From Dehalococcoidales bacterium (GTDB taxonomy: Bacteria > Chloroflexota > Dehalococcoidia > Dehalococcoidales > BS750m-G39), in NCBI GenBank assembly GCA_016783245.1, contig JADHWY010000005.1, positions 1-41,923 of the forward strand: 41,923 nt of DNA, written 5' to 3'. Below are positions 992-16,684 of the stretch, piece by piece (within the stretch, counting starts at the first letter, position 1; the number at the start of each line of letters is the position of its first letter). Made by a program: the position numbers and the translations under genes. The notes under the pieces are model-generated. The model did no database searches, was not told where the DNA came from, and saw only the letters and a program-made list of their open reading frames with translations.

Positions 992-1270
992 CTAATCCAA
1001 AAGTGCCTCTACTCCATATTCTGGCACAGATATATCCCAACCTGTCTTTTCCCTGAGAAATTCGCTGAAATTTTTAGCTGCCTCAGGTTCCCCGTGAACA
1101 ACAAATACTCGTCTGGGAGCCCTCTTGAGTTCAGAAAGCCATCTGAAAAGCTCGTTTCTATCAGCGTGTGATGAGAAACCGTGTATTTGAGCTATTCTCG
1201 CCCTGACTGGATAATGCTGACCCAGAATCCTGACTTTCTTAGCACCATCAACAACAAGAAGTATTTTCAT
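992..1270 (-). pseudogene. C-terminal fragment of an MBL-fold RNA-processing exonuclease (RMMBL/beta-CASP family RNA specificity domain)
   Basis: VDGAKKVRILGQHYPVRARIAQIHGFSSHADRNELFRWL...VFVVHGEPEAAKNF matches the C-terminal RMMBL region; the metallo-beta-lactamase and beta-CASP domains are absent upstream. Confidence 0.7.
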
Positions 1271-1419: not shown

Positions 1420-1731
1420 CTAATTAGCTATTTCCTTATTTGTTCGCTTGTGTCGCTCTGTCCATCCAAGAAATTTCAGAAGGTCACCTACAGCCTTATC
1501 CTGCTGCATTTCGTGCCGAAGCGGCAACTCCGGATTGATGCCGTACTTGGTGCGTCTTCCCTCTCTTTTCTTGGTGACATACCCATCAGCCTCAAGGTCA
1601 GAGATGATGCTCCGGGTGGTCTTCTCAGTGATACCTATGGTCAAAGAGATTTCCCTAGCGGTGATTCGCGGCTGCTGAGCAATCAGGCAAAGCACTAGAG
1701 CATGATTGGTAACAAACTTCCATCCCCGCAT
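1420..1731 (-). CDS. Winged helix-turn-helix transcriptional regulator (MarR/ArsR-like)
   Basis: ALVLCLIAQQPRITAREISLTIGITEKTTRSIISDLEADGYVTKKREGRRTKYGI has a wHTH pattern; divergent from the kamA operon. Confidence 0.8.
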   Translation of the reverse strand: MRGWKFVTNHALVLCLIAQQPRITAREISLTIGITEKTTRSIISDLEADGYVTKKREGRRTKYGINPELPLRHEMQQDKAVGDLLKFLGWTERHKRTNKEIAN

Positions 1732-1844: not shown

Positions 1845-1862
1845 TAGGAAGTATAATTCCTA
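1845..1862. promoter_or_regulatory. Operator-like palindrome TAGGAA-N6-TTCCTA
   Basis: Inverted repeat just downstream of the -10 box; shares the TTAGGA core with the palindrome at 1879-1912. Confidence 0.5.
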
Positions 1863-1878
1863 TATATTATAACAGGAA

Positions 1879-1912
1879 AAATTAGTTAGGACAAGTATTT
1901 CCTAACTAATTT
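1879..1912. promoter_or_regulatory. Large perfect inverted repeat AAATTAGTTAGGA-N8-TCCTAACTAATTT
   Basis: 13-bp perfect arms with 8-nt spacer in the 5' leader of the operon; operator or RNA hairpin. Confidence 0.6.
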
Positions 1913-2018: not shown

Positions 2019-3386
2019 ATGAAAGCACCTTCAACAACCGTGAAAAGTCAATCTACCCCCAGGGTAGAAAAATATTACATCGAAAGCTGCAGTAACAGTG
2101 AGGCAGAAGATGAACCTCCTGGTGAAACAGCCCTATTTAACAATCTTGAAGATGAGCCTCTAGGTAAAACAGTTGCCCAAAGACGCCGATTCTTTGGGCA
2201 CATACCAGATGGCACCTGGAGCGACTGGAAGTGGCATTTCCGGAACAGGATTACGACTGTTGACCAATTAACCAGGTTTATACCCTTAACCCCTGAAGAG
2301 CAGGCACAACTCAGACTGGTAACCAAACGCTATCCCCTCTCGGTAACCCCCTATTACCTTTCTCTTATTAACCCAGATGACCCTGAAGACCCCATCAGGA
2401 AACAAGTAATACCTTCGTTTTATGAGATAGCTCTGGCTGGCATCGGCTTAGAAGACCCCCTTGAAGAGAGAAGGGACTCCGTGGTCCCGGGGCTGGTTCA
2501 CCGCTACCCAGACCGGGTCTTAATGGTGCTTACCGATATCTGTCCCGTGCTTTGCCGCCACTGCACGCGAAAAAGAGAGTGGCACAATGGGGGGTGGGTG
2601 CGTACTCCCCGGGAAGTCGAAGCCATGCTGGACTATATACGCCAGCACCAGGATATTAGGGATGTTATCATCTCCGGCGGTGACCCCTTGACGCTTTCTA
2701 CGCAGCACTTGGAGGGTATTATCTCCAAAATCAGGAGAATACCGCATGTCGAAATCATACGCATAGGCACCAGATTCCCAGTGGTGTTGCCCCAGCGCAT
2801 AGACGCTGAATTGTGTGCCATGTTATCCAGGTATGGACCCATATGGCTCAATACTCAATTCAACCACTCTCGCGAGATAACTCCTGAAGCGGCGGTGGCC
2901 TGTGACCGGCTGCTGCGGAGCGGGGTTCCGGTAGGCAACCAATCCGTCCTGCTTCGTGGTATAAATGATTCCGTGGAGATGCAGACCAAGCTGTGTCACG
3001 ACCTTCTCCGGATTAAGGTACGTCCTTACTATCTCTTCCAGTGTGATGAGGTCGAGGGGACGGAGCACCTGCGCACCCCGGTAGAGGTGGGTATAAAGAT
3101 AATTGAGGGTATGCGCGGCCATACCTCAGGGCTGGCGGTGCCAACCTTTGTCATCGACCTTCCTCAGGGTGAGGGTAAGGTTCCCTTGCAGCCAAACTAT
3201 ATCCTGGCGCAAACTGAAGAAGAACTCTTGCTGAGGAACTACCGTGGTCACCTCTTCCACTATCGAAATCCCAAGGCCAAGGCATACCCGGAATCAACGC
3301 CGGTCGCCAGCTTGCTTAATGTGCCGGAATTACAATTTGAATCGGAAGGAGCCAAGGATGCGGATAGGGTTATCGTACGATCTTAA
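2019..3386 (+). CDS. kamA: KamA family radical SAM protein, lysine 2,3-aminomutase-like
   Basis: CPVLCRHCTRKR (CX3CX2C radical SAM), ISGGDPL, LLRGIND, VRPYYLFQCDEVEGTEHLRTP, RGHTSGLAVPTFVIDLPQGEGKVPL; RBS aggaga upstream. Confidence 0.92.
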   Translation: MKAPSTTVKSQSTPRVEKYYIESCSNSEAEDEPPGETALFNNLEDEPLGKTVAQRRRFFGHIPDGTWSDWKWHFRNRITTVDQLTRFIPLTPEEQAQLRLVTKRYPLSVTPYYLSLINPDDPEDPIRKQVIPSFYEIALAGIGLEDPLEERRDSVVPGLVHRYPDRVLMVLTDICPVLCRHCTRKREWHNGGWVRTPREVEAMLDYIRQHQDIRDVIISGGDPLTLSTQHLEGIISKIRRIPHVEIIRIGTRFPVVLPQRIDAELCAMLSRYGPIWLNTQFNHSREITPEAAVACDRLLRSGVPVGNQSVLLRGINDSVEMQTKLCHDLLRIKVRPYYLFQCDEVEGTEHLRTPVEVGIKIIEGMRGHTSGLAVPTFVIDLPQGEGKVPLQPNYILAQTEEELLLRNYRGHLFHYRNPKAKAYPESTPVASLLNVPELQFESEGAKDADRVIVRS

Positions 3387-4362
3387 AAGAGCCGTGCCCC
3401 TAGATGAAGCTAGCCCTGAGGATGCTCTTGAGGAGTATGACTCTAGAGAAACCGTAGGGCTTATTGCCGCCGCCCTTGAGGCCGGAGGACACTCGGTGGT
3501 AATGCTGGGTGGGGGCAGGGAATTTCTCGACAATATTCTCCGGGAGCAGGTTGACATTGTCTTTAATATCGCCGAGGGACGGGGGAATTATCGCAGTCGA
3601 GAGGCCCAGGTGCCCTGTGTCCTTGAGATGCTGGGGATACCATATTCCGGCTCCGACTCTCAGTGTCTGGCGATTTGCCTTGATAAACCACTGGCCAAAA
3701 AGCTAGTAGTGACAGAGGGTGTCTGTACCCCAAGGTGGCTGCTGGTAACTGGTGAGGAAGACCTCGGTCAAATACCCTGGGAGCAATTTACCTTCCCTGC
3801 CATCATCAAACCAGCCCATGAAGGCTCAAGCAAGGGCATTCGCCTGACTTCAGTGGTAGACAGCGTGAGAAGGATGCAGGAGGAGGTAAGCAGACTCCTG
3901 GATTGCTACCGACAGCCAGTGATGGTTGAGGAATTTATCGCTGGTGACGAGGTTACGGTAGGCATCATAGGGAATTCCCCACCCAAGGTGATGGGCATGA
4001 TGCGCATACTTCCCAAAAGTAGGGAGAATCCCTTTATCTACTCGCTTGAGGTAAAACGTGATTATCAGAACTTGATTGACTATGAATGTCCCGCTCAGCT
4101 TAAGGATGAAGTCCGGGAAAGGATAACCCTCTCCAGCCTGAAGGTGTTTGGGGTTCTGGGATGCCGGGACTTTGCCCGGCTTGACTTCAGGGTTAGCTCT
4201 GAGGGAAAGGCTTACTTTCTGGAGATAAATCCTCTGCCTGGATTGGGCGCCTATAGTGACCTGGTCATTATAGCGAATAAATCAGGCTGGACTCATAAAG
4301 AGCTGATAAATGCTGTACTTGATGCTGCGCTGAAGAGGTACTCGCAGTGCGTGCCCGTGTAG
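3358..4362 (+). CDS. D-alanine-D-alanine ligase-like ATP-grasp protein (1)
   Basis: MRIGLSYDLKR..., IIKPAHEGSSKGI, VEEFIAGDEVTVGI, LEINPLPGLGAYSDL. ATG at 3358 overlaps the kamA stop; the longer ORF start at 3244 is unlikely. Confidence 0.88.
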   Translation: MRIGLSYDLKRAVPLDEASPEDALEEYDSRETVGLIAAALEAGGHSVVMLGGGREFLDNILREQVDIVFNIAEGRGNYRSREAQVPCVLEMLGIPYSGSDSQCLAICLDKPLAKKLVVTEGVCTPRWLLVTGEEDLGQIPWEQFTFPAIIKPAHEGSSKGIRLTSVVDSVRRMQEEVSRLLDCYRQPVMVEEFIAGDEVTVGIIGNSPPKVMGMMRILPKSRENPFIYSLEVKRDYQNLIDYECPAQLKDEVRERITLSSLKVFGVLGCRDFARLDFRVSSEGKAYFLEINPLPGLGAYSDLVIIANKSGWTHKELINAVLDAALKRYSQCVPV

Positions 4363-5435
4363 CCATTGTTTATAATGAGCCCCTCTACAGCCGCTATGAT
4401 GCCAGGGATGAGCAAGCAGCAGTAATTGGCGTGCTTAACGCCGTGGAAGCGGTGCACCACGCCCTGCTCGAACTGGGCTATGAGGTGGTTCGAGTTCCAC
4501 TGGCGTCACCTCTTGACCAGACCAGAAAGAAGCTCGGTGAACTGGAAGTAAATTTGGTATTTAATCTTTTTGAGGGCTTCTGCGGCTACCCGGAAACGGA
4601 AGCCGAGATACCCGATATTTTGTCGGCACTGGGGATACCTTACACTGGCTGTCCCGGTGCGGCACTCAGACTAGCCCTGGATAAGGTCAAGACCAAGGTA
4701 ATTTTAACAGCTGCCGGAATTAAAACGCCCGATTTCCAGTTACTGAGTCCCGAGACACTGTCGATGTCTCGACTGAGTTACCCGTGTATTGTTAAGCCCC
4801 GTGGAGAGGACGCAAGTCACGGACTTTCAGAGAGGAGCGTGGTGTATGATTTTGCCTCGCTCCAAGAACAGGTTGCCAATGTAAGCGGCTTTTACGGCGG
4901 GCAAGCCCTAGTGGAACAGTTCATAAATGGGCGCGAGTTTAACGTTACCGTGCTGGGTAATTACAATTGCACCGTCCTTCCCGTATCAGAGATAAATTAC
5001 TTACTGCCTCAGGCAATACCTAGAATTCTCAGCTTCGCTGCCAAATGGCAGCCCGATAGCCTTTACTTTCAGGGTACAAGGGTAGTCTGTCCCGCTGAAA
5101 TCGAAACCGGCGAGCGAGAACATATTGCCCAAACAGCACTCACCGCTTTTCGTCTGCTCGGCTGCCGGGGCTACGCCAGAGTAGACATGCGGCAGGATGA
5201 GGAGGGACGGCCTAACGTTATTGAGGTCAATCCCAACCCTGACATTTCTCCCAGCTCAGGTGCGGTACGCCAGGCCGAAGCCGCAGGCATGGCTTACCCC
5301 CAATTCATTGAGAAGATTGTGCAACTAGCGCTGGAGAAGGAAGGCCATGACCATCAAGATACGCCACATGACAAAAAGGGACAAGCCAGCCTTGATGAAA
5401 ATACTGCGGAATACACCCGAGTTCAAGCCGTCTGA
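4347..5435 (+). CDS. D-alanine-D-alanine ligase-like ATP-grasp protein (2)
   Basis: MRARVAIVYNEP..., LVFNLFEGFCGYPETEAEIPDIL, CIVKPRGEDASHGL, VEQFINGREFNVTVLG, VIEVNPNPDISPSSG; GTG start overlaps the preceding gene. Confidence 0.85.
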   Translation: MRARVAIVYNEPLYSRYDARDEQAAVIGVLNAVEAVHHALLELGYEVVRVPLASPLDQTRKKLGELEVNLVFNLFEGFCGYPETEAEIPDILSALGIPYTGCPGAALRLALDKVKTKVILTAAGIKTPDFQLLSPETLSMSRLSYPCIVKPRGEDASHGLSERSVVYDFASLQEQVANVSGFYGGQALVEQFINGREFNVTVLGNYNCTVLPVSEINYLLPQAIPRILSFAAKWQPDSLYFQGTRVVCPAEIETGEREHIAQTALTAFRLLGCRGYARVDMRQDEEGRPNVIEVNPNPDISPSSGAVRQAEAAGMAYPQFIEKIVQLALEKEGHDHQDTPHDKKGQASLDENTAEYTRVQAV

Positions 5436-5826
5436 GGTGGTGGTGGCAGAGGAGGTTATTGATAGCTACCTGCGTGACCCGCGTGGTTCAGGCTATCATG
5501 CGCTTGTAGCTGAATTGGATTCAGCTATTGCCGGCTATATCTGCTATGGGCCTACTCCACTGACGGAAGGTACCTGGGACATATACTGGATGGCAGTGGC
5601 CCAGGAGAAGCAGGGCAAGGGCATAGGCGGGGCTCTACTGGCTTATGCCGAGGACCGGATCAGGGAGAATCAGGGAAGGCTGGCAATCATTGAAACATCG
5701 TCCAAGCCGGAATACGAAAAGACAAGGCGCTTTCATCTAAGTCATGGCTACCAAGTAATCTGCCGCATCCCCGACTTCTATGCCCCAGGCGATGATAAAC
5801 TGATATTGCAAAAGCGGCTAAGTTAA
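5347..5826 (+). CDS. GNAT family N-acetyltransferase
   Basis: IYWMAVAQEKQGKGIGGALLAYAEDRI (acetyl-CoA binding Q/RxxGxG/A region); ETSSKPEYEKTRRFHLSHGY. Confidence 0.85.
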   Translation: MTIKIRHMTKRDKPALMKILRNTPEFKPSEVVVAEEVIDSYLRDPRGSGYHALVAELDSAIAGYICYGPTPLTEGTWDIYWMAVAQEKQGKGIGGALLAYAEDRIRENQGRLAIIETSSKPEYEKTRRFHLSHGYQVICRIPDFYAPGDDKLILQKRLS

Positions 5827-5855
5827 GCTAATAGGAGAAAACAAGAGAGTTAACT

Positions 5856-7596
5856 ATGTTTCGCATTCGTCGGGTTTACGATGATATAACTCCGGTAAAT
5901 AAAGAGGCCATAGCTCAGGTTCAGGATATCCTGCGAACCCAGTTTCCCGGCTTGTCAAAGAAGGACATAGCCAAATTACCCGAGCAATTGCGCAACCCCT
6001 TGAAGTACCGTTTTCGCTCCATTCTCTTTATGGCTGAGGGGGCAAAGGGTCGCGTTATCGGATTTGCCCTTCTGTTTCATGAGCCAGTTCTAAGATTCTG
6101 TTATCTGGATTTTATTTCTGCCGCCAAACAAAAGATGGGGGGCGGAATTGGCAGTGCTCTTTATGAAAGGGTGCGGGAGGAAGCGCTAGACTTGAATACA
6201 ATAGGCCTTTTCTTTGAATGCCTGCCTGACGACCCTAAATTGAGCCGTAACCCTGAAATCAGGAAGCAGAATGCGGCACGCCTTCGTTTCTACGAAAGAT
6301 ACGGCGCCCGACCAATCACCAATACTGCATATGAGACGCCACTTAAACCCGGGGAGGATAATCCGCCCTATCTGGTTTATGATGACCTGGGACAGAACAA
6401 AGGGCTCCCACGTGATACAGCCAGGGAGATTGTCCGGGCGATTCTAGGGCGGAAGTACAAAGGTGTATGTCCACCCTACTACATTGAAATGGTGGTAGAA
6501 TCATTTCAGGACGACCCGATACGCCTTAGAGAACCAAAATATGTGAAAAAGGTTCCGCTTCTACCAAAGCGTTCCATATCGATTGATAAGCAAATCGTGC
6601 TCATCATCAATGACCGACATGCCATTCACCATGTAGAGGAGCGGGGATACGTTGAATCCCCGGTAAGGATAGATTCAATTCTAGAGGAACTTGATGAGAC
6701 GGGACTATTTCATAGGATTACTCCTCGTCATTTTTCGGAACGGTATATCAAGGCGGTACATGATTCCCTATTTGTAGACTACTTCAAGAAAGTCTGTGCC
6801 AATCTAGAACCAGGGCAGTCCATCTACCCCTACGTCTTTCCAATTCGCAACACAGCACGTCCCCCGAAAAAACTCCCCGTTCGTGCCGGATACTACTGTA
6901 TTGACACGTTTACGCCGATAAACCGTAACGCCTATTTAGCGGCAAAAAGGGCAGTGGACTGTGCCTTAACCGCAGCCGAACAAATCCTTGAGGGCTACTG
7001 TTTGGCCTATGCCTTGGTACGCCCACCCGGGCATCATGCTGAGCGCCGTTCCTTTGGTGGGTTTTGTTATTTCAACTCGGCAGCCATAGCCGCCCAGTAT
7101 CTGAGCGCATACGGGAGGGTTGTCATCCTTGATATTGACTAATCACCGTGGCAATGGCCAGCAGGACATATTCTATGAACGCTCTGACGTGCTGACCATA
7201 TCTATCCACGGTCATCCCAGTTTCGCCTATCCCTACTTCAGCGGTTTTGCCATGGAGAAGGGAGCTGCAGCAGGCAAAGGCTATAATATAAATATCCCCC
7301 TACCTGAAAATGTCAACGGTGAAAGGTATCGCCGAGTCCTCAGCGAAATACTGAGACGAATAGTGAGATTCCAGCCGCAATTCCTCATTGTCGCTCTTGG
7401 GCTGGACACAGCAAAGGAAGACCCAACCGGTACCTGGAGCCTTGAGGCAGAAGACTTTGAAGCCGTGGGAAAAATGATTGGTTCGCTTCACTTTCCGACA
7501 CTTGTCATCCAGGAAGGTGGATATGACACCCGAGTGCTTGGCATCAATGCATGTCGCTTTTTTACCGGACTATGGTCAGGTGACCTGCCCCCGTAA
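5856..7596 (+). pseudogene. GNAT domain fused to histone deacetylase/acetylpolyamine amidohydrolase domain, split by a 1-nt frameshift near 7140
   Basis: ORF 5856-7142 ends ...PPGHHAERRSFGGFCYFNSAAIAAQYL..VVILDID*; ORF 7120-7596 continues (frame +1) NHRGNGQQDIFYERSDVLTISIHGHPSFAYPYFSGFA..GLDTAKEDPTG..EGGYDTRV. gactaatcacc would read D-Y-H if one A is removed. Confidence 0.85.
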
Positions 7597-15352: not shown

Positions 15353-16684
15353 TTACCTTATTAAAGAAAGCCTGGCTGCCTGCTCAATTGCCTCGGCTAC
15401 TACAAACAGCGAACCGGCAACACAGAGAAGGTCTTTGTCCCCAGCTAGAGCCAGAGCCTGGGATAGCGCAGATGGAACATCCTCAACCACCTGTGCTTTT
15501 ACTCCGTGCCTGGCAAATTCAGCTACCAGAGGCGCCGGCGCCATAGCCCGAGGATGGCGAGAACGAGTGACAATCACCCTACCAAAAATGGGAAATAACG
15601 CTGAGACTACGCTGGCCATATCCTTATCGCACGATGCTCCAATAACTAGGATAGCCCGGTCAAAGTCAAAGTATTGCTCAATAGACTGCTTCAGCCTCCG
15701 GGCAGAGTCAATATTATGGGCACCATCAACCACCACCAAGGGGTGATGGCTCAGAATCTGGAGTCGACCCGGCCAGCTCACTCGCCCCAATCCCCCAATG
15801 ATGCTTTCCCTGGAAACATTGAAACCCTTACCAGCTAAAACCTCTAACGCAGCCACCGCCGTAGCTGCATTTTCCAACTGGTGCTGACCCAGAAGTGGAA
15901 TGGAAAGTTCATAACTAGCCAGTCTTCCTTCTACACGAAGTCGCTGCTGATTAAAATCGAATCCGAGACCCCGCCAGGTGACATCACTGCCAACTCTTAT
16001 CAACTGCGCCCCACAACTTTTGCTGGTTTCTTCTATTACCCCAGCCACCTCATCAAGCTGGGCGGAGGTTACTACTACGCTGCCGGGCTTGATAATGCCA
16101 GCCTTCTCGGCAGCGATTTCAGCCAGGGTATCACCCAGTGCATCCATATGGTCAAGGCCAATAGAGGTGATAATACAGACCTCGGGGCTTATTACATTGG
16201 TGGCATCGAGCCTGCCCCCCAGCCCCACCTCCAGCACCTGAAAATCCACTCCCTTTTGCTCAAAGTGAGCAAAGGCTAGCGCTGTCAGAAACTCAAAGGT
16301 AGTCATGCGACCATAGGTAGCTTTTTGGTCCACTGCCTCGACCTCAGGCTTGAGCCTTTCCACCAGGACGACAAGCTCTTCATCAGAGATTAAGTCACCA
16401 TCAACCTTGATTCGCTCGTTTAAGAAACTAAGGTGGGGCGAGGTGTAAAGCCCGGTAGTATAACCAGAGGCGCTAAGAACTGATGCCACCATGGCAGCTA
16501 CGCTTCCCTTACCGTTAGTACCAGCAATATGAACTGACCTGGCTTTTAGGTGGGGATTGCCCAACCGAGCCAGAAGCTCATCCATACGCCTCAGGTCATA
16601 ATTAGCCGGGCTATACTCAAACTGGGGCATCGTTTCATAGTTAACATAGCTGTAGATATAGTCTAAGGCTCGCTGATAATCCAT
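15353..16684 (-). CDS. folC: Bifunctional folylpolyglutamate synthase/dihydrofolate synthase
   Basis: VHIAGTNGKGSVAAMV, GLYTSPHL, EVGLGGRLDATNVI, VVDGAHN. Confidence 0.94.
   Translation of the reverse strand: MDYQRALDYIYSYVNYETMPQFEYSPANYDLRRMDELLARLGNPHLKARSVHIAGTNGKGSVAAMVASVLSASGYTTGLYTSPHLSFLNERIKVDGDLISDEELVVLVERLKPEVEAVDQKATYGRMTTFEFLTALAFAHFEQKGVDFQVLEVGLGGRLDATNVISPEVCIITSIGLDHMDALGDTLAEIAAEKAGIIKPGSVVVTSAQLDEVAGVIEETSKSCGAQLIRVGSDVTWRGLGFDFNQQRLRVEGRLASYELSIPLLGQHQLENAATAVAALEVLAGKGFNVSRESIIGGLGRVSWPGRLQILSHHPLVVVDGAHNIDSARRLKQSIEQYFDFDRAILVIGASCDKDMASVVSALFPIFGRVIVTRSRHPRAMAPAPLVAEFARHGVKAQVVEDVPSALSQALALAGDKDLLCVAGSLFVVAEAIEQAARLSLIR

Follow-up and report, generated by a model that had tools for sequence, protein, structure and literature searches.

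What would bacteria that appear to lack peptidoglycan do with two D-Ala-D-Ala ligase-like enzymes encoded next to a lysine aminomutase? The question is raised by a locus of the Dehalococcoidales bacterium assembly GCA_016783245.1, a metagenome-assembled genome of 1.03 Mb (78% complete), from which we analyzed 41,923 nucleotides of contig JADHWY010000005.1 (positions 1 to 41,923, hereafter the window). Four genes overlap on its plus strand: a KamA-family radical SAM enzyme predicted to be a lysine 2,3-aminomutase (LAM) (2019..3386, 455 aa; Pfam LAM_C/Radical_SAM), an ATP-grasp ligase of the Ddl fold, here ligase A (3358..4362, 334 aa from the ATG at 3358; Pfam Dala_Dala_lig_C), a second ligase of this fold, ligase B (4347..5435, 362 aa, GTG start; Pfam Dala_Dala_lig_C) and a GNAT acetyltransferase related to PDB 2r7h (5347..5826, 159 aa; Pfam GNAT), with overlaps of 29 nt (KamA/A), 16 nt (A/B) and 89 nt (B/GNAT). 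We propose, with a probability of roughly 60%, that this cassette is a dedicated, locally regulated operon producing a small β-lysine-containing peptide or amide, which is probably acetylated. An initial sequence-only reading had described a single operon of five plus-strand open reading frames (ORFs); the first four are present with the families and positions that it gave them, and the fifth (5856-7596) proved to be two ORFs separated by a broken frame.

By all signs readable from the sequences, KamA, A, B and GNAT are co-transcribed and co-inherited. Indeed, among 61 related genomes of the order, orthologs of ligase A occur in 25, strong KamA matches occur in exactly these same 25, and the remaining 36 have no strong match for either protein (Fisher p ~1e-17, a value that ignores phylogenetic non-independence). 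KamA, A and B also diverge in step, their pairwise identities being correlated (r 0.77-0.84), and the order KamA-A-B-GNAT is held in 50 loci, usually with overlapping genes: KamA and A are at most 60 nt apart in 49 of them, A and B overlap in 48, and B and GNAT overlap or abut in most. The overlaps seen in the window are therefore evolutionarily conserved, as expected of the single operon first suggested. In a broader sample of 251 genomes of the phylum, 33 matched at E < 1e-50, including all 11 Dehalococcoidaceae listed, and outside the class KamA-A, often with B, was found in Planctomycetota, Acidobacteriota, Omnitrophota, Margulisbacteria, Syntrophaceae and others. As the gene set is conserved in dozens of genomes, a chance assembly is excluded, and the concern that it might be found together in no other genome is answered by the order, by the 50 loci and by several other phyla.

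Regarding the aminomutase, the ε-ammonium group of lysine is bound in LAM by two aspartates, Asp293 and Asp330, in place of which glutamate aminomutase has other residues. Both are invariant in 84/84 KamA sequences, as are the cysteines of the CxxxCxxC motif (Cys125/129/132), the pyridoxal phosphate lysine Lys337 and the carboxylate-binding Arg134. The window KamA aligns with the Clostridium subterminale LAM (2a5h) at 454.8 bits and scores below the cutoffs of the AblA equivalog TIGR03820 (482.4 for a cutoff of 525.4), the glutamate and arginine 2,3-aminomutase models TIGR04368 and TIGR04468 (442.5 of 650 and 411 of 600) and the EpmB model TIGR03821 (241 of 369.3). In four other cassettes, TIGR03820 gave 459-529, with one locus (L117) barely over the cutoff. 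In a maximum-likelihood tree, most cassette KamA proteins form a 99/99-supported group separate from AblA (a few long branches being unsure) and the Omnitrophota/Syntrophaceae-type proteins fall into a second group. From its conserved residues, the cassette KamA is predicted to be a lysine-type aminomutase, and the alternative that KamA homologs of this clade act on another substrate finds no support, as far as sequence can tell.

The two ligases (residues numbered as in Escherichia coli DdlB) are close to Ddl in fold and depart from it in catalytic residues. Their AlphaFold models (predicted local distance difference test scores of 88.9 and 88.1 for A and B) superpose on the best targets with template-modeling scores of ~0.82-0.86, their top PDB matches are all Ddl or Van enzymes, and the Mg/ATP residues Lys97, Lys144, Glu187, Asp257, Glu270 and Asn272 are, together with Arg255, essentially invariant in both. 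The Glu15-Ser150-Tyr216 catalytic triad of Ddl is incomplete in each: the catalytic Tyr216 is replaced by Arg in 95/103 ligase A sequences, the other eight being probably second ligases from Omnitrophota, and by Trp in 63/63 ligase B sequences, which have also lost Glu15 and carry Ala or Gly at Ser150 (63/63), His63 being changed to Glu in A and B alike. Since the Glu15/Ser150 pair, located near the donor amino group, is kept in A and lost in B, the donor of A may have a free amine and that of B an amine already blocked, as it would be in the product of A. Scores are below the cutoffs of the NCBIfam Ddl models. Moreover, Mur_ligase_M matches occur in 57/61 genomes as one gene each (one genome having two partial matches), of FolC size where complete; the genome of the window likewise yielded a single Mur-ligase-domain gene (15353-16684, minus strand), also of this size, and most of the 61 genomes have no other Ddl-like match. 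These genomes thus appear to lack peptidoglycan synthesis, and this pattern makes a D-Ala-D-Ala or peptidoglycan role unlikely for A and B.

The acetyltransferase, 46-75% identical between loci, is not AblB, as it gives no match to the AblB model TIGR03827, and its closest solved relative is PDB 2r7h (2.8e-46). That entry is titled a 'putative' D-alanine N-acetyltransferase, and we know of no assay of it.

Local regulation is suggested by a winged-helix (MarR/HTH_24-like) protein of 103 aa encoded divergently from the operon (1420..1731, minus strand; Pfam HTH_24 1.4e-8), homologs of which are divergent from KamA in 21 loci and, in 19 of these, at most 1.5 kb away. Between regulator and operon lies a putative operator, the palindrome TTCCTATATATTATAACAGGAA (1857..1878; consensus TTCCTNTATATTATAACAGGAA; number of chance occurrences expected for the window, 0), and the same consensus is found in the intergenic region upstream of KamA in relatives. 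In genome scans, five cassette genomes each had a single copy, located at the cassette; one weak match came from a genome devoid of the cassette, and a reversed-pattern control gave none. The divergent protein hence probably controls this one operon. An adjacent inverted repeat with 13-bp perfect arms, AAATTAGTTAGGA-N8-TCCTAACTAATTT (1879..1912), was considered as a possible operator or leader element; this 34-nt repeat was rejected, as it is not conserved in relatives and shuffled sequences give comparable repeats. Transporter genes often accompany the cassette, with a MarC/NAAT gene adjacent in 17 loci and an MFS gene in ~13. In 16 of the former, the MarC/NAAT gene follows in the same orientation at ~45 nt or less; in ~12 of the latter, the MFS gene just precedes the cassette, also in the same orientation. 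Neither adjoins the operon of the window.

On these grounds, a pathway can be outlined. Its first step, conversion of L-lysine to L-β-lysine by KamA, is strongly supported by the sequences. Ligase A would then activate an amino acid as an acyl phosphate and join it to an amine, with β-lysine as one of the partners; here the reaction class is supported and the substrates are conjectural. Ligase B would add a second unit, most simply with the product of A as donor, and the GNAT, whose class but not substrate is supported, would acetylate a free amine. In many relatives, the adjacent NAAT/MarC-type or MFS transporter probably handles membrane passage of the product or of a precursor, and minimal KamA-A versions would yield the simplest amide. 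We infer the β-lysine intermediate, the order of ligation, the acetylation target, the direction of transport and the physiological role. A wider formulation, more tentative than the operon itself, is that of a hitherto undescribed, phylum-crossing family of β-lysine di- or tripeptides made by paired Ddl-like ligases, which could serve a housekeeping-like function in wall-less Dehalococcoidia, for instance as a new type of peptide osmolyte or envelope stabilizer, and extend to the cultured Dehalococcoides and Dehalogenimonas.

Several points weigh against our proposal. Identical KamA residues are no proof of activity on lysine, and the acceptor of Ddl-like ligases could be a protein or a sugar. 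Furthermore, GNAT and/or B are often absent in Planctomycetota and Dehalococcoides, and the product may therefore differ between lineages. Among the genomes examined, those resembling Dehalogenimonas carry KamA-A-B-GNAT in full, and those resembling Dehalococcoides KamA-A alone at the locus.

Deacetylation had also been considered as part of the pathway, either as a step in its own right or as removal of an acetyl protecting group. The gene in question encodes a GNAT-deacetylase fusion, split in the window into a 5' part (5856..7142, plus strand) covering the GNAT and the first half of Hist_deacetyl, which ends with a TAA right after ...LDID, and a 3' part in another frame (7120..7596, plus strand), identified by ORF and Pfam, with an acetylpolyamine-amidohydrolase-like domain. 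The frameshift falls within the DxDxHHGNG metal motif, with HRGNG in place of HHGNG in the downstream frame. An intact 580-aa ortholog from the same family reads ...ILDIDYHHGNG... and has both the DxDxHH metal motif and the PGHHA motif; since each half in the window has retained 81% identity to this ortholog, the frame either was broken recently or is misassembled. Full-length fusions are present in 4/61 genomes; adding the broken copy of the window and a sister genome in which a remnant of 28 aa is left gives six, all accompanied by the cassette. Because the fusion is found in a minority of the cassette genomes (~5 of 25), deacetylation is not a core step: this phyletic pattern leaves the fusion as an accessory, optional remodeling enzyme and the protecting-group scheme as, at most, an accessory branch.

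The cassette itself varies between lineages. Gene order is mostly A-B'-KamA in Omnitrophota; in two Myxococcales loci, A and B are apparently fused into one ORF of ~700 aa, and in three further loci of the survey (L107, L115 and L117) a two-component system sits between A and KamA-B. In one genome (G252, locus L162), a third ATP-grasp ligase follows the GNAT within the cassette. An unrelated ATP-grasp-like protein takes the place of ligase B in Margulisbacteria and in one Omnitrophota (loci L108:11018-12004 and L118), and L108 additionally carries an S66 LD-carboxypeptidase. Loci close to that of the window are titled Dehalococcoidales or Dehalococcoidia; the closest (L051, JABMRW010000090.1) is titled Deltaproteobacteria, a probably wrong title, being the same contig as genome G008 of the window's family. 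Neighboring genes encoding EF-G-like, 5'-nucleotidase, Fur with zinc ABC transporter, and glycosyltransferase proteins were examined and judged incidental to the operon. Elsewhere in the window, a 92-aa ORF (992-1270, minus strand) consists of an RMMBL domain (PF07521) alone, an apparent C-terminal remnant of a β-CASP RNase-like protein.

Other products can be envisioned. The operon could make an N-acetylated β-lysine as compatible solute, N-ε-acetyl-β-lysine or a dipeptide of it, to which the ligases would attach residues of osmotic use, by analogy with NAGGN; we regard this as possible, albeit rather unlikely. The combination of KamA and GNAT follows the logic of AblA/AblB, and the distribution of the latter is suggestive: the three Dehalococcoides genomes checked, which retain KamA-A with no B or GNAT at the locus, have a separate AblA-AblB fusion (751.7 bits to TIGR03820 and 339.4 bits to TIGR03827 in one of them), and AblB was not found in the 21 other cassette genomes tested, as if the two systems were substitutable. 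In two Dehalococcoides-like loci (L134:4235-6496 and L135), this fusion is 753 aa long from the first start codon and unites both N-acetyl-β-lysine enzymes in one polypeptide. AblAB may thus have replaced part of the cassette function in Dehalococcoides, a view based on one lineage. However, since Dehalococcoides keeps KamA-A beside AblA-AblB, this pair is not redundant with acetyl-β-lysine synthesis and would have another task, and acetyl-β-lysine requires no two ligases. Plain N-acetyl-β-lysine was hence rejected as product, the cassette GNAT not being AblB and Dehalococcoides having both systems. A study of salt adaptation in Dehalococcoides and Dehalogenimonas covering osmolyte genes (PMC12415852, 2025) does not mention the aminomutase in its main text, which also speaks against an osmolyte.

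Equally conceivable, and equally short of being probable, is a secreted small molecule, i.e., a signal, a metallophore or an antibiotic-like β-lysine peptide, exported by the linked MFS or MarC proteins. The transporter genes of many loci, a single-operon regulator similar to MarR-type ligand sensors and the diaminobutyrate or diaminopropionate genes of distant KamA/ATP-grasp clusters (rhizobial plasmids, Thioflavicoccus) are consistent with it. Nevertheless, the vertical-looking retention in small-genome Dehalococcoidia (11/11 of the Dehalococcoidaceae listed) is not what is usually seen with accessory natural products.

Modification of a macromolecule, with ligase A attaching β-lysine to a protein, as EpmA/EpmB do on EF-P, or to a surface polymer, seems improbable. 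EpmB is among the relatives of KamA, and several Omnitrophota loci have an EF-G-like gene after the cassette, but this neighbor is not conserved elsewhere, the KamA score is far better for AblA than for EpmB and the cassette has no EpmA/LysRS-like gene; an EF-P-like modification was discarded on the latter two grounds. To our knowledge, the characterized small Ddl-fold ligases all act on free amino acids, which also counts against it. Finally, A and B might, as their best sequence and fold matches would have it, be conventional D-Ala-D-Ala (or D-Ala-D-X) ligases, with an aminomutase of no related function next to them; this is highly improbable and was rejected given a triad lost differently in A and B, scores below the Ddl cutoffs, the Mur-ligase pattern and the strict linkage to KamA.

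If correct, our proposal of a β-lysine peptide or amide operon would introduce a new class of metabolites in widespread, pollutant-dechlorinating organisms of anaerobic subsurface sediments and offer a function for genes annotated as D-Ala-D-Ala ligases in bacteria seemingly devoid of peptidoglycan. It is directly testable, as complete Dehalogenimonas-like and Dehalococcoides-like genomes carry the cassette. In line with the initial impression that no such pathway had been described, the open-access full-text literature searched gave no pathway uniting KamA and ATP-grasp ligases, which is weak evidence as subscription journals are mostly outside it and enzyme names containing commas match poorly.

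Known systems share parts of this logic. With the AblA/AblB pathway, the cassette has in common a lysine 2,3-aminomutase and a GNAT, and it differs by a KamA that does not reach the AblA cutoff and branches in a clade of its own, a GNAT of another family and two added ATP-grasp ligases. With DdlA/B and VanA, its ligases share the fold, the Mg/ATP residues and Arg255; unlike them, they lack the catalytic Tyr216, and B also Glu15 and Ser150, with no peptidoglycan context. The accessory protein resembles acetylpolyamine amidohydrolases (6phr, 3q9b), the closest relatives of its deacetylase domain, to which it adds a GNAT at the N-terminus; the copy in the window is frameshifted. Rhizobial plasmids (L131, L165, L166 and L169) and a Thioflavicoccus plasmid (L132) carry genes for Ddl-like ATP-grasps or of the KamA family, L132 and L169 having both, and some have diaminobutyrate/diaminopropionate or panD genes nearby; these distant variants resemble the cassette in placing KamA near a Ddl-like ATP-grasp and differ from it by an identity of ~31% and other extra genes (ectB, SbnA, panD). 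The NAGGN-type osmolyte dipeptide pathway likewise combines ATP-grasp ligation with GNAT acetylation of a small peptide and, unlike the cassette, involves no β-amino acid, no KamA and a different ligase family.

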